A stretch of DNA of 64,000 nt, from positions 864,001-928,000 of the forward strand of contig NC_083675.1 of NCBI RefSeq assembly GCF_030384665.1, in the 5' to 3' direction. The DNA is from Lodderomyces elongisporus (lineage: Eukaryota > Ascomycota > Pichiomycetes > Serinales > Debaryomycetaceae). A program made the translations under genes and the position numbers. Shown here in pieces: positions 1-64,000 of this stretch; within the stretch, counting starts at the first letter, position 1; every line of letters begins with the position of its first letter. The notes beneath the pieces were generated by a model, which ran no database searches, was not told where the DNA came from, and saw only the letters and a program-made list of their open reading frames with translations.

Positions 1-655
1 AAAAAAACAAAGAAACAAGATGATTGAGTCATAAAGTTAACCTGTATTTACTTTAACATCTTTCTTTTTTTTTTTTTAGAACTGTGTACAAGTTGCTATT
101 GATCAATAGGCGGAGATAGAGACGGCTGATTGAGCCTGTTGAAAAGAAAAAATAAAAAAAAAAAGAGGAAAATGTGACGGAACTTAAAGCGTAGTGTAAA
201 AAAAATAAAAAAATAAAAAAAAATAAAAAAAATAAAAAAAATAAAAATTGTCCGACAGGGCAAAGTGCAGAGGAATTGTACAATTTTTTGTGACGGAAAG
301 GTTACAGCAGAAGTAAGGAGAGTTAGAGAGAGAGAGAGAGAAAGAGAGAGGGAAAGATTGAGAACAGCAATACAATAGCCAACCACCGTGTTGTGGTAGG
401 TAAGTGAGTAAGTAAATAATTAATTATTATTATTATTTTATTTTCTTTTCAAGGCAATTGACATGGACAAAACATAGTGGGCAAATTTCAAAACTGGTAT
501 GACTAGTAAGAACTAATTCCAAAGTCAGTGATTATTAGTGCTGCTGGATCAACTATTTGTTTGCACTTTGTACGTCTTTTTGGAGCCGTTCCATATATGT
601 GCCAAGTGGTATACAACTTATTCAGAATTCCGTGTACGCCCATATCTATATCTAG

Positions 656-657
<2 letters not shown>

Positions 658-719
<62 letters not shown>
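658..719. repeat. (AC)n-(TA)n compound microsatellite
   Basis: About 41 bases of perfect AC repeat (658-698) run directly into about 21 bases of TA repeat (699-719). The tract lies about 200 bases upstream of the ABC transporter start, in the likely promoter. Confidence 0.95.
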
Positions 720-851
720 CCAGTGAGATTCCCCTATCTTGTTTGCCACCATCATGAAATCAAAGTAGCTTTACTATTCAGTTTTCTTTTGAGCAGATCA
801 AGTTATTAAACAAACTATAAATTGACATTAGCTGCAACCAACCAAAGCAAG

Positions 852-854
<3 letters not shown>

Positions 855-911
<57 letters not shown>
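855..911 (+). repeat. (CAA)19 repeat in the likely 5' leader of the YOR1-like gene
   Basis: Nineteen perfect CAA units end 10 bases before the ATG at 922. The tract is probably transcribed as an unstructured leader. The reading frame does not run through it, so it is not polyglutamine here. Confidence 0.9.
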
Positions 912-913
<2 letters not shown>

Positions 914-921
914 CTTAAGCT

Positions 922-3900
922 ATGGATGCAGGTTTAGACACGAGCTCACTAGAGCTTGGTGACAACACATACAAGCCGCAGAGTAGAGTCTTGACTTTTC
1001 TCTTTAGGCACAAGGACTATCCCATACCCAAGGACGATGAAAGAACACTATACCCTGAAAAACAAAGCAACTGGCTATCAAGATTATTCTTTTGGTGGGT
1101 GAACCCACTACTAAATGTTGGTTACTATAGAACTTTGCAACCAAACGACCTATTTATCTTGACAGACGAAATGAAGGTTGAGCGTCAGCATGAGATTTTT
1201 CAATCATACTTTGAAGTTGAGTTGGCCAGAGCTATCCAACTGCACTTGGCCATGAAATGCGAAAAAAGACGCAACGAGACTTTGACAACGAGCTCCGTTT
1301 CAGAAGAACAAGACTTGGATGACTTCAAACTCTCGGCAAAAAGCATGTACATTGCATTGTTCTTAACCATGAAGAGAAGACTCATTGTTGCAACTGCATT
1401 GGCTACACTATGTTTGGCTGCAATTGCAGTATCGCCATTCCTAACAAAAAAACTAATAAACTTTGTTGAAGGACGCGCCTTGGGAATATACCCCACTGTG
1501 AACAAGGGTATAGGCTATGCAATTGGTTCTGTGCTATTGAGTTTGGTTAGCGGATTCTTATTCCAACATTATTTCTACCTCAGTGGAATACTGGGCGCCC
1601 AAGTCAAAGCCTTGTTGACTAAAGCCATTTTAAAAAAATCATTCAAGTTGGATGCACAATCAAGACACAAGTTCACCCAGGCCAAAATTACGAGTTTGAT
1701 CACCACGGACTTGGCAAGAATCGAGCTTGGCTACTTATTTCACCCACTATTGGTTTGTCTTCCTGTTCCCGTGGTGCTCACAATCATCATTTTGATCATC
1801 AATATTAGAGTCTCCGCTGTCATAGGTATTGTCATCTTTATCATCTTTTTGGGCATCATCTCTGTTGGTGCAGCAAAGATGTTTGCCTTGAGAGATGCCG
1901 TGAGTAAGGTTACCGACCGCAGAGTCAATATTATGAAGGAGATCTTGAACAATTTGAAAATGATCAAATACTACTCATGGGAACATCCATACTTGCAGAA
2001 AGTCACCAATGTGAGAAACGAAGAAGTTGACATGATTATGCAAATCCAAACATTAAGAAACATCATTTTCTCACTCGCAATGACATTGACTGGTATTTGT
2101 TCCATGATTGCATTTGTCATACTTTGGGCCATCAATGGCGAAACAAGCTCAGCAGCAAACATTTTCTCTTCGGTATCAGCATTTGAGATTTTGGGGTTGA
2201 TGGTTTTCTTTATTCCCCAAGCTCTTTCAACAACACTGGATATGCTCTTGGGATTCAGAAGAGTTGGCGCATTGCTTTCTGCACCCGAAGAAAAACATTA
2301 TCCAGGCTACAATGTCATTGAAGATTCCACCAAAGACGACCAGGCAATAGTTTTGAAAGATGCTTCCTTTATCTGGGCCACATTTGACGACAATGAGAGT
2401 AAGGGTAATGGTCATGAAAGTGACGATTATGAAAGTGACGATGATGATACACCAGCACAAAAGAAGGCAAAGAAGAAGCAAAGAAAGTTGAAGAAAAAAT
2501 TGGAAAAAAAGGAAACCAAAAGAAAAACCAAACTTGCAAAGAAACAAGGCATTACAGTTGAAGAGTTGGAAAAACGAGAAAACAATGATGAAAAAACTCT
2601 TGTCAAGAATGAAAAATCTGAAAAAAAGCAAATTACAGATCAAACCACATTTGCTGGTCTTCGAAATATCAATTTAGATATCAAAAAAGGCGAGTTTGTT
2701 GTCATTACAGGTGCTATTGGTTCAGGCAAATCCTCGCTATTAAACGCCATCTCCGGGTTTATGACTTGTGAGGGAGGGGAAATTGACATTTATGGATCTT
2801 TGCTTTTATGCGGTGCTCCCTGGATTCAAAACACCACTATTCGTGAAAATATTACTTTTGGATCACCCCTTGAACAAAAGACTTATGATGACGTCATTTA
2901 TGCGTGTGCTTTAAACATTGATTTGGATAACTTGGGAGGCGGTGATCTTACCGAAGTTGGTGAAAAGGGTATTACGCTATCAGGAGGCCAAAAGGCTAGA
3001 ATCAACTTGGCTCGTGCTGTTTATGCCGATAGAGATATATTGCTATTGGATGATGTTTTGAGTGCAGTGGATGCGCGTGTGGGTAAACACATCTTGAACA
3101 ATTGTCTTTTGGGCTACTTGAAGAATAAGACAAGGATATTGGCGACGCATCAACTATCCCTTATTGGCCAGGCTGATCGAATCATATTTTTGAATGGTGA
3201 CGGTACCATTGATGTGGGAACTCTAGAAGAGTTGACACTGAGAAATGCCAAGTTTGACAATCTTATGCAACATAGTAAGCTTGAAAATACTAATATTGAT
3301 GATTTCGATATTGAGAGTAACAATGGTATTGACAATGATTGTGTGAGAGAGAAAGATGAAAAGGGTGAGACTAAAAGAGAAAATGGACAATTTATTGGGG
3401 AAATTGATGAGGATACCAATACCTATCAAGAGCATGGAGTTGGTGATGACGAAATTGGTACCAAATACTCACATAGTTTACAAAATATTACTCGAGAACT
3501 AACCAATGGACACGGTGTTGGTAACAATACTAATTACAACCAGTTTGGTTCCAACCATGAATTGAATGAGGAGTATAGAGATTACAATTTGAACAAAGAT
3601 GCGGCAAAAGGTAAACTTATTGTTGCCGAAGAAAGAGCAGAAAACAGTTTGAAGTTTGAAGTTTACAAAAACTATATCAAGTTTGGTGCTGGTAAAATGG
3701 GTACTTTTCTTTTCATCACAATGTTTGTCTTTTTGTTGACTATTGCTACATTTTGCGACATCTTTACCAACACATGGTTGTCATTTTGGATTTCAAACAA
3801 ATTTCCTGGACGTTCAAGTGGATTCTACATTGGAATCTATGTGATGTTTACTTTGCTTTGGGTTATATTTCTTACGCTCACATTTTTATTGTTTATTAGG

Positions 3901-5571
3901 GGTACGACTACCTCATCAAAGATTATGAATATCAAGGCCATCAATAGAATCTTGTATGCACCGATGTCGTTTATGGATACTACTCCAATGGGAAGGATAT
4001 TGAATAGGTTTACAAAGGATGCCGATGCTCTTGATAATGAAATCAGTGACAATTTGCGTATCTTATTTCAAGCCATTGCTAAGTTGATTGGTGTATTGAT
4101 CTTGTTGATCATTTATATTCCCTGGTTTGCATGTGCGTTACCTGCGATTTTTATTGTGTTTTTTTTGATTGCAAACTACTATCAAGCTTCTAATCGAGAA
4201 ACAAAGAGGATTGAAGCTATATTGAGGTCGTTTGTTTACAATAATGTTAATGAGATGTTGAGTGGTATGAATACAATCAAGTCGTACAAGGATGTGTCTA
4301 GGTTTGACAAGAGAGGCGATGACTTGTTGAACACTGCGAATGAAGCAACATTTATTGTTTCCGCAAATCAAAGGTGGCTTGGAATTCATTTGGATTTGCT
4401 TGCTCAGGCTGTTTTTTTGCTTGTTTGTTTGCTTTGTGTCAATAGAGTATTTGATGTCTCTGCTGCTTCGACTGGTTTATTGATTACGTATACTACGCAA
4501 ATGGCGGGAGAGTTGAACAACTTGTTTAGATCATTTACCATGGCTGAAAACGATATGAATTCAGCCGAAAGAATTTGTCATTATGCATTGAAGTTGGATC
4601 AAGAGGCACCGTACAAAATTGATGCTAATGCTCCACCTTCCAATTGGCCTGAGTCTGGTGCTGTTGAGTTTGTTGATGCCAATATGAGGTATAGACCCGG
4701 CTTGCCCTTGGTGCTTAAGAATTTATCTGTTGAGATCAAGCCTAATGAAAAGATTGGAATTTGTGGTCGTACAGGTGCGGGTAAATCCTCGATTATGACT
4801 GCATTGTTTCGACTTGCAGAGTTGAGTTCAGGTAAGATTGTTATTGATGGTGTCGATATTTCCACCATTGGGCTTCAAGATTTGAGATCGAAATTGTCGA
4901 TTATTCCCCAGGATCCAGTTTTATTCAATGGTACAATTAGATCCAACTTGGATCCCTTTGACGAACACACCGATGAAGTGTTGTGGGAGTCTCTTCGTCG
5001 TGCGGGTATACTCACAGTTGAAGAGCTTAATGCTGCTAAAGCAATCACCAAAAATGGTAAAGACAAAAACAACGGTGAACATGGTAGTAAACCTAAAGGT
5101 AATGGTGCTGATGGCAAAAGTGAAAGTGAAGGTAATGGTGCTGGTGGCAAAAGTGAAAGTGAAAGTGATGGTGAAAGTGAGCTTCCAAAATTCCATTTAT
5201 ACCGACAGGTTGAGGATGAAGGAGAGAATTTTTCACTTGGTGAACGACAACTTATTTCTTTTGCACGTGCGCTTGTCCGTGATTCCAAGATTATTGTTTT
5301 GGATGAAGCTACATCCTCGGTGGACTACAAAACCGACTCGCGTATCCAACAAACCATTGCCACCGAGTTTCAGAATTGTACCATTTTGTGTATTGCCCAT
5401 AGGTTAAAGACCATTGTGGGTTACGACAAGATCATCGTTATGGATAAAGGTTCAATGCTTGAGTACGATACGCCATGGAATTTGTTCAATAAAGTTGGTG
5501 GAGCCAAAGTGTTTAGAGAGATGTGTGATAAGTCGAATATTGTGGAAGCAGATTTCGTAAATAGAGGTTGA
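922..5571 (+). CDS. YOR1: ABCC-family multidrug ABC transporter, Yor1-like
   Basis: A 1549-codon full-length ABC exporter (TMD-NBD-TMD-NBD), expected at the plasma membrane and effluxing organic anions and drugs such as oligomycin. NBD1 has a Walker A GAIGSGKS (597-604), signature LSGGQ (686-690) and Walker B ending D710-D711, where Asp replaces the catalytic Glu; this is the usual asymmetry of ABCC proteins. NBD2 has Walker A GRTGAGKS from 1282, a divergent signature FSLGERQ at 1437-1443, and Walker B D1461 with catalytic E1462. N-terminal residues such as SRLFFWWVNPLL match the Yor1 group, which lacks the extra TMD0. Two features are odd: a very Lys-rich segment before NBD1 (about 515-575) and a Gly/Ser/Glu/Lys repeat insertion inside NBD2 (about 1375-1425). 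Start: first ATG, directly after the CAA tract. Confidence 0.9.
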   Translation: MDAGLDTSSLELGDNTYKPQSRVLTFLFRHKDYPIPKDDERTLYPEKQSNWLSRLFFWWVNPLLNVGYYRTLQPNDLFILTDEMKVERQHEIFQSYFEVELARAIQLHLAMKCEKRRNETLTTSSVSEEQDLDDFKLSAKSMYIALFLTMKRRLIVATALATLCLAAIAVSPFLTKKLINFVEGRALGIYPTVNKGIGYAIGSVLLSLVSGFLFQHYFYLSGILGAQVKALLTKAILKKSFKLDAQSRHKFTQAKITSLITTDLARIELGYLFHPLLVCLPVPVVLTIIILIINIRVSAVIGIVIFIIFLGIISVGAAKMFALRDAVSKVTDRRVNIMKEILNNLKMIKYYSWEHPYLQKVTNVRNEEVDMIMQIQTLRNIIFSLAMTLTGICSMIAFVILWAINGETSSAANIFSSVSAFEILGLMVFFIPQALSTTLDMLLGFRRVGALLSAPEEKHYPGYNVIEDSTKDDQAIVLKDASFIWATFDDNESKGNGHESDDYESDDDDTPAQKKAKKKQRKLKKKLEKKETKRKTKLAKKQGITVEELEKRENNDEKTLVKNEKSEKKQITDQTTFAGLRNINLDIKKGEFVVITGAIGSGKSSLLNAISGFMTCEGGEIDIYGSLLLCGAPWIQNTTIRENITFGSPLEQKTYDDVIYACALNIDLDNLGGGDLTEVGEKGITLSGGQKARINLARAVYADRDILLLDDVLSAVDARVGKHILNNCLLGYLKNKTRILATHQLSLIGQADRIIFLNGDGTIDVGTLEELTLRNAKFDNLMQHSKLENTNIDDFDIESNNGIDNDCVREKDEKGETKRENGQFIGEIDEDTNTYQEHGVGDDEIGTKYSHSLQNITRELTNGHGVGNNTNYNQFGSNHELNEEYRDYNLNKDAAKGKLIVAEERAENSLKFEVYKNYIKFGAGKMGTFLFITMFVFLLTIATFCDIFTNTWLSFWISNKFPGRSSGFYIGIYVMFTLLWVIFLTLTFLLFIRGTTTSSKIMNIKAINRILYAPMSFMDTTPMGRILNRFTKDADALDNEISDNLRILFQAIAKLIGVLILLIIYIPWFACALPAIFIVFFLIANYYQASNRETKRIEAILRSFVYNNVNEMLSGMNTIKSYKDVSRFDKRGDDLLNTANEATFIVSANQRWLGIHLDLLAQAVFLLVCLLCVNRVFDVSAASTGLLITYTTQMAGELNNLFRSFTMAENDMNSAERICHYALKLDQEAPYKIDANAPPSNWPESGAVEFVDANMRYRPGLPLVLKNLSVEIKPNEKIGICGRTGAGKSSIMTALFRLAELSSGKIVIDGVDISTIGLQDLRSKLSIIPQDPVLFNGTIRSNLDPFDEHTDEVLWESLRRAGILTVEELNAAKAITKNGKDKNNGEHGSKPKGNGADGKSESEGNGAGGKSESESDGESELPKFHLYRQVEDEGENFSLGERQLISFARALVRDSKIIVLDEATSSVDYKTDSRIQQTIATEFQNCTILCIAHRLKTIVGYDKIIVMDKGSMLEYDTPWNLFNKVGGAKVFREMCDKSNIVEADFVNRG

Positions 5572-8531
5572 TGTATAAGCTATTGTATAAAGTAGTTACC
5601 AGAAGAAAAAAAAATGAAAAAAAAAATGAAAAAAAAAAATGAAATGAATAAATTAATATATAAACACATGAAATATTGCATATTGTATATTGTTCTTTGG
5701 AGTAGTAGTAATTAGACAATGTCAAAATAAAAGAAAAGTTGTCTTAACTTTTGCTGGCTAAGCGCTTATGCAAAACTACTTCGTATATATATATATATAT
5801 GTATGTAGTTAGGAGATGCGCATATTGTAGATAGATTCCTGTTTTAGGCAGTTTGCGCTTTTTATTATTTATTTTTTTATTTAATTTTTTTTTTTTCATT
5901 CTTCTCAATTTTATTCCGTGGGGCGAGTGAAAACAACTATCAAAATCTTCGAATACGATACTTGACATATTCTTCACCTGAAATGAATGCTGGAGAGACA
6001 AAGTTTTCAAATTTGTTTCAAAAACAAAAAAAAAAAAATAAAAGAAGAAAGTGCCCTATGTCTAATATATTGGTTGAAGCATATATACTGTCAAAATAAA
6101 AAAAAAAAAAAATTGCAAGACAGTGATAAGCATTAAATGGTGAGTGTTTCAAGTATATGTCTGCGACACTAATCTTATTTTCGACTTTTGTTTTTCTTTA
6201 TTCTAATACTTTAGTCTTTGCTCGACTGTAGTCACATGGTATAGTAAAAATTTATACAAGTCAGCACCTCTCTTGAAAGAAACCTAGCCACTTGTGTATA
6301 AATTCGAAGAGTTAGCATTTTCTGAAACTACTTTGGCTAATTTTATTTTTTTAGCCAGTGGTTCTTTTTGTTTTTCCTTTGCTTTGTTTGTTTCTGACGT
6401 TGAAGCTTGAACAGAAAACAATCTCCTGTTTCTGTTATTTGATTGGAAACATCTGTATCTTCCTATTGCAAAGTTTACTGAACCTATCATTTTATCTACT
6501 GATACACTCAGTAGTCCTTTTTTTGGTAGCTGTGTAAGTGAGTAACAAAAAAAAAAGGAAACAACAAGTTGTGAAAGGTTTCCGATATTGACTTGTTCAT
6601 CAAAATGTGTTGTTGAAGAAAAGAAAAACTTGTCAAAAAAATGAGTAAATATTAGAGTCAGGATATGCTTACAAGCTAGTTTTAGCTAATACCATTCGTT
6701 GAATATCTGATATTGCCTTATATGATCTTTCTTTCTCGTTCCTGAATACTCAATCCAGTCCCGACTACTACGTCTAATGAGGATAAACAGAAAAAAAAAT
6801 TTCTTCTACTAAACCAAAATCGAATTAGAAAATAAAAAAAGGTGGTTACTTGGTACTTGCTACGTGTAATTCATATACATCAATAAATTGATTTGTCTCT
6901 TCAAATGATTACTTGTAAAACTTTTAATTCATAGCTGGTGAACCCATCTCTCAAACTTAAAAGTTCACCTGCAAAGTCCAAAATATTAGCCGCGAGAAAA
7001 ATGGGAGAAAAAGCCCCCTTATTTATATATGAAGCATGTGTTGATGTTGATGTTGAGTTTGATGTTGAGTTTTATGTTGGGCAACAACAGACAATGAGTT
7101 AACGTAGTTGCAAAACACATAATATATTTCAAAAGAAGTTGCCATAGAGAAACTGGAATAAAGCCAAAACAAGAAGTAAAACATAAAAAAAGAAGAGAAA
7201 AAACAAAACAAAACACAAGTGAAAGATGTATGAATACAATAATACCAATTAGATTAAAAAAAGACAAAAGGAAATTTTGTAGCACCCTTTATCAATACAA
7301 ATTGTTGGTCATGTTTCAAGTCTTTCTATACATCACCAATAAATTGTGTTGAAAAAATACTTACAAAAATTTGGCAAAAGTACCTATTTGCAACAAGCAT
7401 TGCAACAAGCAAGCAAAACAAACAAGCAAAACAAAACAAAACAAAAAAAATATTCAAAGTTAACTTTATTCAGTTTTCTTTTCCCTTTTTTTTCTTTTCA
7501 TTCAATTTTTGAAGAAAACACAACACCAAATTGACGATGGCTTTATTCTTGCTGATTTTCCAATAAGTGTAAACTGGAATGCAATAGTTCTTGAATTGAA
7601 TAAATTCTGCCAAGAGTGACATGCTTACCATTACCCTTTTTATTTATCTACTTTATTTGGCTTCCTCTACAATTTCAAGGATTATTTCTGATGGTACAAA
7701 TGGACTTAATCAAACATTATATATATATGAAAACAGTAGTGATACTATCTTGAAAAATAGAAAGTTGCCACTTTCATTCATTATTCATAATGTAATGTCA
7801 ATAGCATTTAATTGCACCTTATTCCAAAAACCTCTTTGTTCTCAATTTAACCACAATTAATTTACAATTAATTTACAATTAATTCACATGATGTTTCACA
7901 AAAACCTCACTATAAACTCAAAACCAAGACTACGTGAAAGAAGCCAAACCTTTACAGAAATATAATATTGTAATTATTTTCATAGCCATGTAAACAAAGA
8001 ATCTTTGTTTACAAATCACATGTGTATCACTCGAACCGAAAGTATACTCTATTGAATTGTAAATAGAACCAAAAAAAAAAAAAAAAAGTAAGCAAAAGTA
8101 AAAAAGGAAATTAAAATTTCCCATCTTGTCCAATTGAGCCATCGTAGCTTCAATCATCTTCTTGCTATTTACTTCTGCGTTGGCCAACTAGGCTATAAAT
8201 AAGTACTGTCTTTTTCCAATTATCAAAGATTTTGCAAGACTTACTTTTCTTCAGTACTAAATAAACAACACCTCCAAGTCCCAAGGAAAGCTATTTGTCA
8301 AAGCCTGAACCAACGAACTAACGACTCAAAACTATTTTGCATTACCTTGCATAATAATACTCTCAATTTTGCCTCAAATTGAACCTTTGCTTAATTAATT
8401 ACAATAATAAATTGGAAATTTAGTAAACAAAAGATACCTTTAGCGAAGAAACAAAAAACAAAAACGAAAAACGAAAAACGAAAAGAAAAGAAAAATAGTG
8501 GAGGGGGGGGACTGAAAAAAAAAAGTACGGA
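5572..8531. other. Three-kilobase gene-poor block with short coding-like fragments
   Basis: No ORF of convincing length is present. Short stretches read like protein: minus strand near 5.85-5.97 kb, minus strand 6284-6490 (ATG, 68 codons, basic N-terminus) and minus strand 8.10-8.19 kb (a helical-looking start followed by low complexity). A plus-strand ORF at 7621-7860 has a hydrophobic start but A/T-driven composition. None has an identifiable family. They may be chance ORFs, small genes or decayed relics. Tracts of A with ATG-like interruptions lie at 5605-5640. Confidence 0.5.
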
Positions 8532-59295: not shown

Positions 59296-61009
59296 AAGAA
59301 GGAATTGTATTTTTCTTGGCAACGGTTCATATCCCAAATCTACCGCATTCAATCATGATACTATTTGATAAGTACAATCAGAACTCATATTTCTTGACAC
59401 GAGATCATTTTCCTAATAGAACAGATGTCCTTGAAATATACCTAACTGAGGTTGAGCTGGCACCATCTGTTCTGCCTACAAGGTTTCCAAAAGGTTAATT
59501 TAACAGTGTTTATTAAAAAAGGCAGAGATACCTTTTCTCGTCTCCTATTTTGAGTCTAAAAATTGTTCTATTTTTGGGATATTTCTATATGTATATATAA
59601 ATTCTATTTCTAATTTTTTCAATGCCTTTTTTTTTGGGTGGGTGGGTGTAATTGTGAATACCAAGCCTCGTTTCTATTAACCAGCAGAAAAATATCGTGT
59701 TTTGATAGAGTACAAATCACTATTTTCAAATACACAGCTCTTTTATATTTCTAATTATATCCATTTTGATGTAGAAGGTCTCTACAGGTGTTGCGTACAC
59801 ACTATAAATGGTGGAGTGAGGTGCAGAAGGGGGGGGGATGGTGAATGGAAGGTGTAAAAAAAGACGACAACAACAAAGCAGGAGAACTTGAAGAAAAGGT
59901 GACAGCATGTAGGGGCAGAAAAAAAAAAGTGGAAGCAGACTGCTCGCCTAACATTCAAAAGACGAATGTGTACTGAAGAACACAAGCAAAGGAATATAGC
60001 AATGTCACTTTTTAATCATTTTCTAAATTTATTCAAAACTCTATTTTTAGTTTCTCTTCTCCCGAATATAGGAGGCGTAGTATTTTGTTAAAAAAAAAGA
60101 AATAGAGAGAAACCAAAAGACAAAAAACAGGGATGTCAGTGTGTTGCTCTACTATTTATTAGATCAAAGAAATTCCACGACTTTATGGTTTATTGACATT
60201 TAACTTGTTTTGCACTTTGGTTATCTTTGGCATACAAATTTGTTACACCTAGAAAATATAATAGACAAGGTAGTGAACATAAAGTTGTTTACTTTTAAAT
60301 GTTTGCCATACTCATTTGTTTCATTGTTCCAAAACAGTGTTGTAACAAATTTCTTAAATGTGAAGGGTAAAGATGGGGTTTCAACGTAGCTTCTATTCAC
60401 TTGATTCTTTTTTTTTTTTTTTTGGGAAAAGAAAGAGTTGTGTTTTTTCTTTATGTCAAAAATATTTAAATAACAATTTAAAGTCTGGCATTTTTATGAT
60501 TCTATATAATTGTGATAAGTTTATTTTACCACTTTTGGTTCCTATTTATATAAACCGGATTCCATTTGAAGTTTCCAATTTCCTATGTCGTATATTATTT
60601 GCCATGTTACTACTTGATAGGAGCGCGGGTACAAGGCGTCAAGTGTGTATTACACTGTGACAAAATTACTATGTTTTGCTCTGTTTTGCTCTGTTTTGAT
60701 TTGATTTGATTTATTTTGTTTTTAGATTCCAACATGCGTGGTCGATATCACCATCTTATACAAAGAAAGTAGTTCTCGTAAACTGTTAGATGGCCAACCA
60801 AGATTTGCAGCCAAAAGAACAATAATTGTATGAAAGATTGCCCCCCCTCCCAACTCCACCCCACTTTGTTGATACAAGTTATTCAACTGTCAAGCACAAG
60901 ACTTAAGTCTTGTGTCTGTGTGTAATAGACTAAATGGGCTGAGTCATCAATTGAGTAAACTACACTTGGCAAAGCTTCCATTTAACAAATTGTACCAAAA
61001 GCGGATATA
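58972..61009. other. Intergenic left of the LTR element
   Basis: About 2 kb. No supported gene is seen. It has an AG repeat (59264-59290), a G-run (59829-59838), a C-run (60841-60848), T-runs (60408-60423) and GTTTTGCTCT/GATTT repeats (about 60672-60712). Confidence 0.6.
59264..59290 (+). repeat. (AG)13 microsatellite
   Basis: A perfect AG dinucleotide run of about 27 bases in intergenic DNA. Confidence 0.95.
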
Positions 61010-61365
61010 TGTCACATACAGGGCATCTACGAGGTGATTAAGCTCGCTACCAACCCATAGGTAGCTCCTTTACTAACCTCTTGTAGAACACCTGAAGGAC
61101 CGTACCATCTTGTCATCCCGAGTTTATCCGCCTCTGGGCATCAGACTAGCGATCTGCATATACGCTAGCCAATTAGAGAGCCGGTACTTTCCCGAGATAG
61201 ACATTGTGCTACGTCTTCTGAGGTTGTTGAGAAGAGCTTAAATAGCCACCAAGATCCCAGTTAGATAGACCTCCTCGATATATACTTCTAGAGGACAACT
61301 TTAGAGTAGATAGCTTTAGATCAACTAACTCTCAGTATAATAACGTTCTAATGTTATATCTTTAG
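61010..61365 (+). repeat. 5' LTR (minimum extent)
   Basis: The direct repeat starts with TGT. The matched part ends at 61365 only because the window ends in the other copy; the true end is probably a few bases further on, near a CACACA (61368-61374). It contains a GCTACC...GGTAGC hairpin within a longer GAGGT...ACCTC pairing near its start, and a TTAAATAG TATA-like box (61238-61245) for transcription toward the ORF. Confidence 0.9.
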
Positions 61366-61438
61366 TTCACACACAAAACTAAGTAATATCACTATTACTG
61401 TTCAGACATAAGCATACCGAACACTACTTATCTCTGAC

Positions 61439-63508
61439 ATGGAGGTCCTAACCAGATACACATCGTCCGTAGCTACACTACGCCAACTCGCAGACAGCTT
61501 CACTATCATTATCTGCCTTATTATTGGAGTCATCACTATGGTCAGCGCCAACGCTAACACCCGACCATTGCTCCAACCTCTTTTAAACATTCTGCCATCT
61601 CTTGGCCCACAAGTTCTCCACATATTTATCAATCACTTGCCATTCGAATGGTTTCTCAATTCTAATATCACTTTTACAGTCCCACTTAACGACCCAAGTA
61701 AAATATTAGCTAATCAAATTAGTCAAACCTTGACACCTAAACACTTCACTACGACGTTCCGTAACTTAGACGTAAGTATTCTATCCGAATTTTCAATTTT
61801 AGACCTCGTTTCTGGAATCCAATTAAGCGACACTGCCCCTTCCTGGATCGCACTCCTTTGGCACGCAATTACGAAAGTCGTTCTTATTTCAATCAATTGG
61901 TATAACATTTTCCACTACTGGTCGCTTCTCACCTTTATCTTCACACTGTTCGCCGTGTTGAATACAATCTATAACCTTCTTTCTTCTATTGTCAAAAGGC
62001 ATTTCAACAGGAGAACCAAGAAACCAAGCAAAAACAACCAACACCAAGTCTACAATTTCCACAGTCGCGGACTCTCAAACCTCATCTTCTACACGAATGA
62101 ACGAGTCCAGGCTAAGCCTGTAAAATCAAAGACTACCTTATTTGGTTGGATCTGGCGAACCCTCAAGTTTCCTTTTCGTTTTTGCTTTTCAACGCTTTTG
62201 CGTTATTTACGAATTTCTCAGTCAAATACTAAGCCAATAGGTACCATCAGTTACACAAGGTATCGCCTTCGTAATTTGGACTTTACAACTAGGGAAACAC
62301 TTCTTAAAACCCTCATTCCACAGATACGGTATGTCCAATTTAATGCCGCTCATCTTTATCAAGCTATTGTCGACGCAGGCAACCGTGCCGACTGGTCAGA
62401 ATTAGCTGAATTTCGCTCTGCTCGCTCAAAAATTACACGCAGAAAACATTTATGGAGCTTCTTAAGTTTCATGTTACGTTGGAACGTACCAGACACGGTG
62501 TACGACAAATACTGCCAACGCTCATATGACAAAGCTCTTACTTTAACAACTCCGGTTAAAACTTATCATGAGTTGCTCCAACTCCTTCGCGAACTTGACG
62601 CCTTACCTTACTTGAGACCTAATTTTGATACGGTCATAGTACAACTCTTAAGAACCGCGTTCCTGCACAAACCAATCCATAAAGTTATCAAACAAATCCA
62701 CAAAGAAACCACATCTTATTGGGATTTCTGTTACGTTTTCGATTCAAGCTTTTATGAATTGGTTCCACCTAACATTAAAGGTAAACCATGTCGCCGTCCT
62801 CCTGTCCATCACTTTTTAAGGAATGGTTTACCACGTTGTTATCGGGACTTACCCACCACTCCCACACCAATTGCCGCCACTGCGCTTAAACCCATTACAC
62901 ATATTCCTGATACAAATCATCAACTTATCGTTAGTACTCTGGACTTAGAAACAACTCCTGACACAGCTCCAGAAACACTCAAAGACATTATTGATGAAAA
63001 CAAAGCACAGAAACTTGAAATCACATCTTCACCTGCACGTCCAGATAAGCACAGAGTCAATATCAACCGGACTGCTCCTTTTCCACCAAATCGGCCTCTT
63101 TCTAAAACCGCTATGGCCGCTGAATTAGCTATCACCAACAGCACAACGGGATTGCTGGGACTTGGTACGATGGCACTCACTACTAGTCATCGCCACAGTC
63201 CACCTTGTGTTGTCTTTAAGAAACCCGACCCCCGGGGTATCGTGTATAACTCTCGTGACATCAATTACAGACACGTTAGAGAGTATTACCGGGAATCACC
63301 GACTTTGCAGCCTTTAAGTCACGAATTATCCAGCGCTTACAATCAATTGCGCATTTACTTTGCCACATATAAATGGCCTACTACTTTTTTTGACACCAGT
63401 TGGGCATTATTCATTCCAAAAAATTGTCCATTGAAATTACATACATTATCAAATTTTTTTTCAGTGGGGTGCGGAGAGGGTACCGCCTTATCACAAGGCA
63501 CCTTTTAA
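61439..63508 (+). CDS. 689-codon ORF of the LTR element, membrane-type protein of unknown family
   Basis: An intact ORF starting about 70 bases after the LTR. Predicted membrane segments lie at about 18-38 (TIIICLIIGVITMV) and at about 138-187 (two hydrophobic stretches around WSLLTFIFTLFAVLNTI). A Lys/Arg/Asn-rich stretch (about 188-205) follows, then a long soluble, basic region. Cys/His residues occur at about 440-475 (PCRRPPVHHF...PRC), but the spacing is not a standard zinc knuckle. No YxDD, DDE, or DTG/DSG motif in the right context is seen, so Pol functions are absent. It could be an unusual Gag, an envelope-like product or a captured gene. Codon choice (more C-ending codons) differs from the host genes. 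Several CTG codons fall at hydrophobic positions, which matters if CUG is read as serine. Confidence 0.75.
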   Translation: MEVLTRYTSSVATLRQLADSFTIIICLIIGVITMVSANANTRPLLQPLLNILPSLGPQVLHIFINHLPFEWFLNSNITFTVPLNDPSKILANQISQTLTPKHFTTTFRNLDVSILSEFSILDLVSGIQLSDTAPSWIALLWHAITKVVLISINWYNIFHYWSLLTFIFTLFAVLNTIYNLLSSIVKRHFNRRTKKPSKNNQHQVYNFHSRGLSNLIFYTNERVQAKPVKSKTTLFGWIWRTLKFPFRFCFSTLLRYLRISQSNTKPIGTISYTRYRLRNLDFTTRETLLKTLIPQIRYVQFNAAHLYQAIVDAGNRADWSELAEFRSARSKITRRKHLWSFLSFMLRWNVPDTVYDKYCQRSYDKALTLTTPVKTYHELLQLLRELDALPYLRPNFDTVIVQLLRTAFLHKPIHKVIKQIHKETTSYWDFCYVFDSSFYELVPPNIKGKPCRRPPVHHFLRNGLPRCYRDLPTTPTPIAATALKPITHIPDTNHQLIVSTLDLETTPDTAPETLKDIIDENKAQKLEITSSPARPDKHRVNINRTAPFPPNRPLSKTAMAAELAITNSTTGLLGLGTMALTTSHRHSPPCVVFKKPDPRGIVYNSRDINYRHVREYYRESPTLQPLSHELSSAYNQLRIYFATYKWPTTFFDTSWALFIPKNCPLKLHTLSNFFSVGCGEGTALSQGTF

Positions 63509-63644
63509 CGAACAGCCCCCAATTTTAAGTCCTGGGCTACACCCAAATTTATAACTTACTTATGCTGGCGAAAAGTCCATGCCTTCCCTTGTGGCAACCA
63601 AGGACCGTCATTTAGTAACTCCTCCTCAAGCAACCTAGGGGGGA
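63509..63644 (+). other. 3' internal region and polypurine tract of the LTR element
   Basis: A short non-coding segment between the ORF stop and the 3' LTR, ending in the purine tract AGGGGGGA (63637-63644) that abuts the LTR. A second purine-rich block (GGGGTGCGGAGAGGG, about 63466-63480) lies at the end of the ORF, directly after a TTTTTTTTCAG that mimics a splice acceptor. Confidence 0.75.
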
Positions 63645-64000
63645 TGTCACATACAGGGCATCTACGAGGTGATTAAGCTCGCTACCAACCCATAGGTAGC
63701 TCCTTTACTAACCTCTTGTAGAACACCTGAAGGACCGTACCATCTTGTCATCCCGAGTTTATCCGCCTCTGGGCATCAGACTAGCGATCTGCATATACGC
63801 TAGCCAATTAGAGAGCCGGTACTTTCCCGAGATAGACATTGTGCTACGTCTTCTGAGGTTGTTGAGAAGAGCTTAAATAGCCACCAAGATCCCAGTTAGA
63901 TAGACCTCCTCGATATATACTTCTAGAGGACAACTTTAGAGTAGATAGCTTTAGATCAACTAACTCTCAGTATAATAACGTTCTAATGTTATATCTTTAG
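63645..64000 (+). repeat. 3' LTR, truncated by the window end
   Basis: Identical to 61010-61365 at every base I compared. Identity of the two LTRs indicates a recent insertion or recent gene conversion. Confidence 0.92.

Follow-up and report, generated by a model that had tools for sequence, protein, structure and literature searches.

TR-GAG elements of plants are long terminal repeat (LTR) elements with gag as their only open reading frame (ORF). Here we describe an LTR element that likewise carries a gag-only ORF but resides in a yeast, Lodderomyces elongisporus (NCBI RefSeq assembly GCF_030384665.1, contig NC_083675.1). It lies at the end of a stretch of 64,000 nucleotides (positions 864,001 to 928,000 of the forward strand, hereafter the window) and spans window positions 61010 to 64074, the final 74 bases falling past the window end. 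The systems it most resembles are Ty3/Gypsy elements of wheat. RLG_Quinta is described as a non-autonomous element whose ORF consists of Gag plus a domain of unknown function, without reverse transcriptase (RT) or integrase (IN); it and RLG_Cereba are reported to have an identical predicted primer site, conserved LTR termini and a Gag conserved as protein but barely as DNA, and exchange by template switching has been proposed for them (PMC11302176). RLG_Sabrina_SA and RLG_WHAM, with RLG_Wilma, have been called 'semi-autonomous' and are said to give Gag to a complex in which they cooperate with an autonomous element, and the wheat Gag-only partner families are reported to run to thousands of copies (PMC9744471). 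In yeasts, Scheffersomyces stipitis is described as carrying non-autonomous, noncoding LARD elements beside complete elements (PMC8546629), and Candida albicans Tca1 as a non-autonomous LTR retrotransposon that is still transcribed and is said to lack an ORF (PMC7175516). The window element is, like these, a non-autonomous LTR element of a CTG-clade or related yeast, but it keeps a coding gag. L. elongisporus itself is said to carry elements like Ylt1, a yeast Ty3/Gypsy element (PMC3248453, PMC5014426). Our search of openly licensed papers turned up no fungal Gag-only partner element and no membrane-spanning Gag in yeast retrotransposons, which is not proof of absence.

The window element (copy A) is probably, at about 0.8 by our estimate, a recently mobile Gag-only (semi-autonomous) Ty3/Gypsy element that receives Pol in trans from an intact element of the same genome (F, or its near copy G) and that became chimeric through a template switch. 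It is an LTR retrotransposon, with two LTRs bounded by TG...CA, a 5-bp target duplication, a tRNA primer site and a purine tract (Table 1). A first-pass annotation, made from the letters of the window, had recognized LTRs identical over 356 bases and a purine tract abutting the 3′ LTR, and had proposed looking past position 64000. The LTRs prove identical over their full 430 bp, the tract is AGGGGGGA at 63637-63644, and the 3′ LTR ends at 64074 with ATATA on both sides of the element. These cis signals are retained together with an intact gag whose ratio of nonsynonymous to synonymous substitution rates (dN/dS) is below 1; protease (PR), the RT active site, RNase H (RH) and IN have been lost. 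We propose that the element's RNA would be transcribed from its own LTR and its Gag would enter virus-like particles, with Pol supplied in trans by F/G, whose primer site and purine tract are the same and whose LTRs start almost identically. By analogy, it would work like the RLG_Quinta/RLG_Cereba pair and the semi-autonomous wheat elements. It shares with RLG_Quinta, as described, a Gag-only Ty3/Gypsy organization and an autonomous partner with the same primer site and LTR termini. RLG_Quinta is a centromere-specific wheat element, whereas here there are four full-length copies in a yeast, the extra part is a recognizable RT relic, no sister Gag-Pol was found in the genome, and the block of purine tract and unique 3′ region (U3) appears to come from a more distant helper (PMC11302176). 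RLG_Sabrina_SA is said to supply Gag and protease, while the window element has no protease; the cited passages on RLG_Sabrina_SA and RLG_WHAM make no mention of a membrane-like Gag, and the window Gag has hydrophobic segments (PMC9744471).

A DNA search of the genome with the visible part of the LTR, a check that the first-pass annotation had proposed, gave 25 matches. Full-length Gag-only copies of the A type number four, namely A in the window, B (C1:965476), C (C3:1319351) and D (C2:1297880). A and B are identical over 3,065 bp, C and D are 1 base apart, and A and C are 99.05% identical. The four copies sit at four sites, each with a different perfect 5-bp target duplication, so the structure is not due to chance. 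Copy O (C3:1363326-1366246 and flanks, minus strand) is a fifth full-length element that has diverged from these; its two 416-bp LTRs are identical, its target duplication is GTTTG, and its ORF has 665 codons. Perfect 5-bp duplications flank all seven full-length loci examined (A, B, C, D, O, F, and G), and the LTR pairs are identical in six of the seven, that of copy C differing at 1 base. LTRs of the A type also occur by themselves at four sites (99.1, 98.1, 97.0, and 94.8% identical), with a 5-bp duplication visible at three of them; the remaining match is without its first bases. Insertion near tRNA genes was looked for, and none of the seven loci scanned contains a tRNA gene.

F and G are 5,741 bp long and 33 bases apart, each with an identical LTR pair and an open 1,676-codon Gag-Pol. 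Pfam models above their cut-offs in F are RVT_1 (757-913), two RNase H models, Integrase_H2C2, rve and SH3_Tf2-1; RVP_2 falls just below its cut-off, and there is a protease-like motif at 553. The order of Pol domains is PR-RT-RH-IN, which places F in Ty3/Gypsy (Metaviridae), and its best solved relative by sequence is Ty3 (PDB 7q5b). A full-length Ylt1 is given as 9,453 bp, against the 5,741 bp of F (PMC3248453, PMC5014426). F/G is an intact autonomous partner in the same genome, matching the window element in primer site, purine tract and LTR termini. The LTR starts compared are TGTCACATACAGGGC and TGTCGCATACAGGGC, and the ends GACA and CACA; F and A match exactly over 21 nt across the junction of LTR and primer site, the 3′ end plus U3 is 89.8% identical over 353 bp, and U3 is 89.1% identical over 267 bp. 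The first-pass annotation had suggested seeking a full-length partner with the same LTR; F/G shares U3 at 89%, but the R/U5 region differs. These shared signals make F/G most likely the present helper. A pattern search placed tRNA genes with the ending TTCGAATCTGGTTAGGACCT at four places in the genome, two of which ARAGORN called tRNA-Gln(TTG) and two tRNA-Lys; we read the latter as probably this same tRNA interrupted by an intron-like insert. Searching with a tRNA-Gln end like that of S. cerevisiae gave no match, and the corrected pattern matched. Copy O retains only the first 15 nt of the primer match. A separate F-type locus (L018 1001-5483; G000:C1:3118396-3122878) is a palindromic insertion in which F 1-3144 forward is joined to F 1403-1 inverted. 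Both of its outer ends are U3 ends (TGTC) and ATATT stands on both flanks; it looks like the integrated hairpin product of aberrant reverse transcription.

A protein search with the 689-codon ORF of the window element returned 3 proteins; the nearest match was LELG_00354 (99%, 689 aa) from Lodderomyces elongisporus NRRL YB-4239. Residues 1-500 of F found no match in the same kind of search. F Pol gave 882 matches, the best 120 of which are headed by P0004 (1,630 aa, ENA contig), P0005 (1,640 aa) and P0006 (1,331 aa). P0004 carries PR-RT-RH-IN and, among the matches listed, is the closest complete relative, being 74% identical over Gag (A 1-492) and 43% over the relic (A 484-650). No complete element of the P0004 type was found in this genome among the 29 of 68 candidates that were scored; the P0004 query recovered F/G at 50% and the Gag of A-D and O at 76-77%. 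No relatives were found in viral contigs with the P0004 query, nor in bacterial and archaeal genomes with the window ORF. P0002, a 603-aa fragment, comes from a 2,094-base contig deposited as Acetobacter pasteurianus and is 77% identical to the window ORF. It is a yeast-type Gag-only element and most likely represents yeast contamination of that bacterial assembly. It has the same two internal deletions as the window ORF, so the Gag-only state would be older than the split of A, O and P0002. The first-pass annotation had reckoned with a full-length copy in which the ORF is an ordinary Gag fused to Pol and of which the window copy is a simple deletion. Full-length relatives do exist, but no parent was found in the genome. 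A simple deletion of F or G was rejected as the origin of the window element, its Gag being 31% identical to theirs while U3 is 89% identical. Since Gag is 31% identical to F/G and 74% identical to P0004, which comes from elsewhere, the copies are not simple deletions of any element found here.

By its alignments, the window ORF is the Gag part of a single-ORF Ty3/Gypsy Gag-Pol (residues 1-484) followed by a decayed RT start (residues 489-650). The first-pass annotation had picked it out as the only ORF, of 689 codons, and it runs from 61439 to 63508; it was translated with code 12 (CTG=Ser) and is open under both this and the standard code, with five CTG codons. Its ATG uses the last base of the LTR, so the opening residues (MEVLT) are encoded by the primer site. 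The MEVL start is also found in P0004, P0005, and P0006; F starts in another frame, inside its LTR. Relic residues 489-646 align to the RT start of full-length F at 35% identity. The first catalytic Asp is replaced by Glu (HELSSAYNQL vs. TIDLSSAYHQL), nine residues are deleted internally, the protease region between Gag and relic is deleted, and residues 651-672 show a weak by-eye match to the LPFGL motif. The earlier statement that RT, integrase and protease motifs are lacking was right for protease, the RT-catalytic YLDD and integrase, none of which is left in the ORF, but it overlooked this in-frame RT relic. A complete Pol is absent from the window element, and Pfam found nothing above cut-offs in the ORF. 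The zinc knuckle CX2CX4HX4C is absent from both A and F, and neither has a second long ORF that could be env. The Gag, the relic and the cis signals point to Ty3/Gypsy for the window element.

Some of the earlier identities for the ORF need revision. It was called an unknown protein, but it is collinear with Gag of Gag-Pol proteins in the same genome and elsewhere. The idea of an envelope-like protein is ruled out by this collinearity, since in F, P0004, P0005, and P0006 the membrane-like part belongs to Gag and precedes Pol, and the idea of a captured host gene falls with it, as discussed below. The proposal of a Gag-like protein riding on a partner's Pol holds for the Gag, and the supply of Pol in trans would follow from the shared signals. 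A copy of the retrotransposon ORF on C3, P0003 (PVL30_002666), is annotated as a hypothetical host protein of 385 aa and departs from the plain ORF.

The window element is composed of two parts with different affinities. By blastn, A matches O over 288-2566 at 93.2% and F over 2550-2902 (3′ end and U3) at 89.8%. No blastn match was obtained between O and F, or between the window U3 and copy O. The LTR identity to F drops off past about LTR position 280, and sliding identity puts the junctions at LTR positions of about 267-288 and, internally, at about 2545-2563 (window 63554-63572), where CGAAAAG is common to A, O, and F. The 3′ stretch of A is untranslated and collinear with the end of the F ORF. 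That of O reads LTDDSEKASKV and then a stop, and P0004 ends NKESKV, which we take to mean that O probably keeps a P0004-type end and that A received an F-type end. Retroviral-type reverse transcription takes R and U5 from the RNA 5′ end, whereas U3 is supplied by the 3′ end. Because R/U5 is copied from the RNA 5′ end, a single switch at about 63554-63572 yields both junctions, including the one in the LTR at about 61277-61297. We propose that RNA of an older Gag-only element of the copy O type and F-type RNA would have been packaged together, that RT would have switched template near 63554-63572, and that the product would have had an O-type R-U5-gag body with the F-type purine tract and U3. 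Thus we infer that the window element is an older Gag-only body joined to an F-type 3′ end, for which one template switch would suffice. A single switch also predicts that the RNA starts near 61277-61297, about 40-60 bases past the TATA-like site at 61238. Since RT can switch templates only when the two RNAs share a particle, the chimera gives indirect evidence of co-packaging of the A lineage with F-type RNA. The LTR-only sites of the A type, up to 5% diverged, all have the chimeric LTR, which places the switch before the present copies arose. Three solo LTRs (L023, L024, and L025, at G000:C7:1009094, C1:606062, and C4:15182) have an O-type R/U5, 95-96% identical over O 197-416, and carry a third, different U3. 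U3 exchange therefore seems recurrent here.

The first-pass annotation had also noted membrane segments in the ORF, and hydropathy bears this out as a prediction. The maxima over 19-residue Kyte-Doolittle windows are 2.42 and 1.64 in the window ORF. In the first 280 residues, the highest values are 2.42 for A, 2.21 for O, 1.90 for F, 2.63 for P0004, 2.54 for P0005, and 2.81 for P0006, and the 169-aa subtelomeric Gag fragment described below reaches 1.54. The separate Gag-side ORFs next to Pol at four other Ty3/Gypsy loci in this genome (506, 295, 552, and 290 aa), which are called Gag by position only and of which two look related, have maxima of 1.21, 1.37, 0.82, and 0.78. At the same loci, one of the four Pol-side ORFs has a segment above 1.6 within its first 500 residues (1.81, L042). 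Hydrophobic N-terminal segments are thus common to the six long clade members measured (A, O, F, P0004, P0005, and P0006). On hydropathy, the N-terminal Gag segments are predicted to span the membrane. A hydrophobic segment followed by a basic stretch resembles, by description, the FAST-like proteins of insect elements (PMC11952523). Structure prediction, suggested at first pass, gave a confidently folded Gag core but no structural or Pfam match: the core model matches no solved structure, its profile reached a best E of 1.3 against PDB sequences, and the window core has no match in Pfam. A model of the whole ORF had low confidence (pLDDT 48) and no match at E 0.001 in a viral library or PDB, with weak rows only on realignment. 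Because the core matches no solved structure, the label Gag rests on position and homology.

Selection on the ORF was estimated from one subfamily pair, A vs. O (synonymous divergence about 0.10; bootstrap ranges in brackets), since A and C have 6 ORF differences, too few for dN/dS. Over Gag (residues 1-484) dN/dS is 0.45 (0.29-0.77; 29 synonymous and 50 nonsynonymous changes), so the comparison between copies that the first-pass annotation had called for gives a value below 1. Values are 0.38 (0.16-0.85) for residues 1-110, 0.61 (0.28-1.54) for residues 201-300, and 0.23 (0.09-0.58; 10.5 synonymous and 9.5 nonsynonymous) for residues 271-484; the relic (485-650) has 0.72 (0.34-1.66; 9.5 synonymous and 24.5 nonsynonymous). 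By Fisher test, equal rates are rejected for Gag (p 0.002) and residues 271-484 (p 0.004), and the relic gives p 0.29. Invariant columns served as a second test. Where P0004, F, and P0006 are invariant, A retains 43/46 columns in the Gag core (271-466) and 23/46 in the relic (505-650; Fisher p 5e-6); with P0005 added, the counts are 19/21 and 19/39. As controls for the relic, F retains 46/55 columns common to P0004 and P0006, of which A retains 27, and P0004 retains 46/58 columns (25 in A). A and P0004 share an identity of 0.72 across the Gag core and 0.40 across the relic, the reverse order of P0004 vs. F (0.43 and 0.62). The relic of A appears to have drifted as far as a distant functional Pol, though its Gag is close to that of P0004; an origin of Gag and relic from different lineages through recombination could add to the contrast. 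Gag looks constrained and the relic much less so, and both dN/dS in this one pair and the invariant columns argue that gag is maintained by selection.

Several observations weigh against a Gag-only element served by F/G. The membrane-like stretch 111-200 has a dN/dS of 0.76 (0.20-3.30), from 12 changes only, and the direct contrast in dN/dS between Gag core and relic is not significant (Fisher p 0.15). The distant, functional P0006 itself retains 46/91 of the relic columns common to P0004 and F, compared with 41/91 in A and 53/91 in P0005, and the loss of relic columns reads as decay only because the Gag of A resembles that of P0004 so closely. No stop codon interrupts the relic, an outcome that a neutral simulation (substitutions only) allows at a probability of 0.13 to 0.56. 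A capsid fold was not recognized in the Gag core. The direction of the U3 exchange is suggested by short C-terminal resemblances, and mobilization by F/G by the shared signals. Copy O lacks an F-type U3 and has the shorter primer match, yet its LTRs are identical; either mobility does not depend on an F-type U3, or O was served by a different helper.

The most probable of the alternatives, though still unlikely, is a passive deletion derivative whose ORF is a Gag-Pol fossil without a present role, the helper supplying both Gag and Pol. Protease and the rest of Pol are plainly deleted, the ORF end varies (689 codons in A-D, 665 in O), core and relic are not separated by the direct dN/dS contrast, and the open frame is limited evidence, Gag staying open in the neutral simulation with probabilities of 0.07 and 0.02 at the A-O and A-P0002 divergences, respectively. 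A fossil does not account for a Gag dN/dS below 1, or for Gag columns retained while relic columns are lost. Slightly less probable again is that the Gag of the window element chiefly inhibits F/G by spoiling its particles, as a truncated Ty1 Gag is described to restrict Ty1 in Saccharomyces through spoiled particle assembly (PMC7175516). With Gag of A and F 31% identical, mixed particles might be poor, and the F type has 2 intact copies against 4 full-length copies and 4 LTR-only sites of the A type; blocking its only helper would, however, limit the element's own spread. A domesticated or captured host gene, e.g., for a membrane protein, lying between LTRs by chance is very improbable, for although the membrane-like segments and the annotation of the P0001 and P0003 copies as hypothetical host proteins would suit it, the ORF is collinear with the Gag-Pol of P0004, P0005, P0006, and F, its first codons sit in the primer site, and 12 of the 15 genome matches to the ORF lie in LTR-flanked elements (A-D, O, F, G, and the palindromic F-type insertion).

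The semi-autonomous reading can be extended, tentatively and with rather more doubt than confidence, to a Gag-only element that outlived its Pol donor and switched helpers when template switching in shared particles gave it the U3 and purine tract from a distant element (Gag 31% identical), in a clade that as a whole builds its particles from a membrane-spanning Gag and may assemble them on or in a membrane. As far as our searches show, the new features would be a yeast host, a parent missing from the genome, a 3′ end captured from a helper, and a Gag with membrane-like segments. Where the wheat families are so numerous, this 16-Mb yeast genome has a handful of copies (four Gag-only elements, one diverged relative, two intact putative helpers, and solo LTRs), and Pol loss, Gag retention, exchange of U3 and purine tract, and renewed spread can each be read at single loci. 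It thus becomes testable in a yeast whether a non-autonomous element can change helpers through a 3′-end swap and whether it must supply its own Gag. A separate question, raised by the clade's membrane-like Gag, is where particles form.

Table 1. Features of the Gag-only element in window coordinates.
Feature	Position	Strand	Remarks
5′ target-site duplication ATATA	61005..61009	.	3′ copy at 64075-64079, beyond the window
5′ LTR	61010..61439	+	430 bp, TG...CA; matches 3′ LTR at 430/430 bp
U3, F type	61010..61276	+	LTR positions 1-267; 89% identity to LTR 1-266 of F/G
TATA-like TTAAATAG in U3	61238-61245		
R/U5, O type	61297..61439	+	LTR positions 288-430; 93.75% identity to copy O LTR 273-416
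Upstream ORF in leader	61351..61365	+	four codons (MLYL, stop); common to copies A and O
Primer binding site	61440..61457	+	18 nt, complementary to the 3′ end of tRNA-Gln(TTG) plus CCA
Sole long ORF	61439..63508	+	689 codons; Gag fused in frame to decayed Pol start
Gag part	61439..62890	+	residues 1-484; A 1-492 74% identical to P0004 Gag, 115-466 31% to F
Membrane-like N-terminal part	61466..61993	+	hydrophobic residues 10-42 and 134-185, then basic 186-200 (net +7)
Gag core	62249..62848	+	residues 271-470; predicted all-helical, ten helices, mean pLDDT 88, pTM 0.83
Pol relic, N-terminal RT	62903..63454	+	residues 489-672; by alignment to F and P0004
3′ module, F type	63554..63644	+	outside the ORF; collinear with the Pol C-terminus of F (TYAGEKSMPSLVATKDRHLVTPPQAT vs. 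AYACEKSLPALVAPKDRHLVTPPQTT)
Polypurine tract AGGGGGGA	63637..63644	+	adjoins 3′ LTR; identical in F
3′ LTR	63645..64074 (in window 63645..64000)	+	430 bp, identical to 5′ LTR

The remaining three of the 15 genome matches to the ORF come from two subtelomeric fragments, where no LTR of these types was found. Locus L034 at about 4546-7651 (G000:C5 subtelomere, 1758-1761.5 kb) is a decayed Gag-Pol with stops from a further lineage of the clade; its Pol is ~60% identical to F and P0004 (60-62% with the P0004 query). Locus L035 at 7218-7727 on the minus strand (G000:C3:2327085-2327582) is a 169-codon fragment of a diverged Gag N-terminus near subtelomeric repeats. Other Ty3/Gypsy families are present in many near-identical copies, e.g., at C1:22997-24256 and C2:478373-480832, including at least 15 loci with a 1,529-codon frame, at least one with a 1,531-codon frame, and at least four with a 1,422-codon frame.

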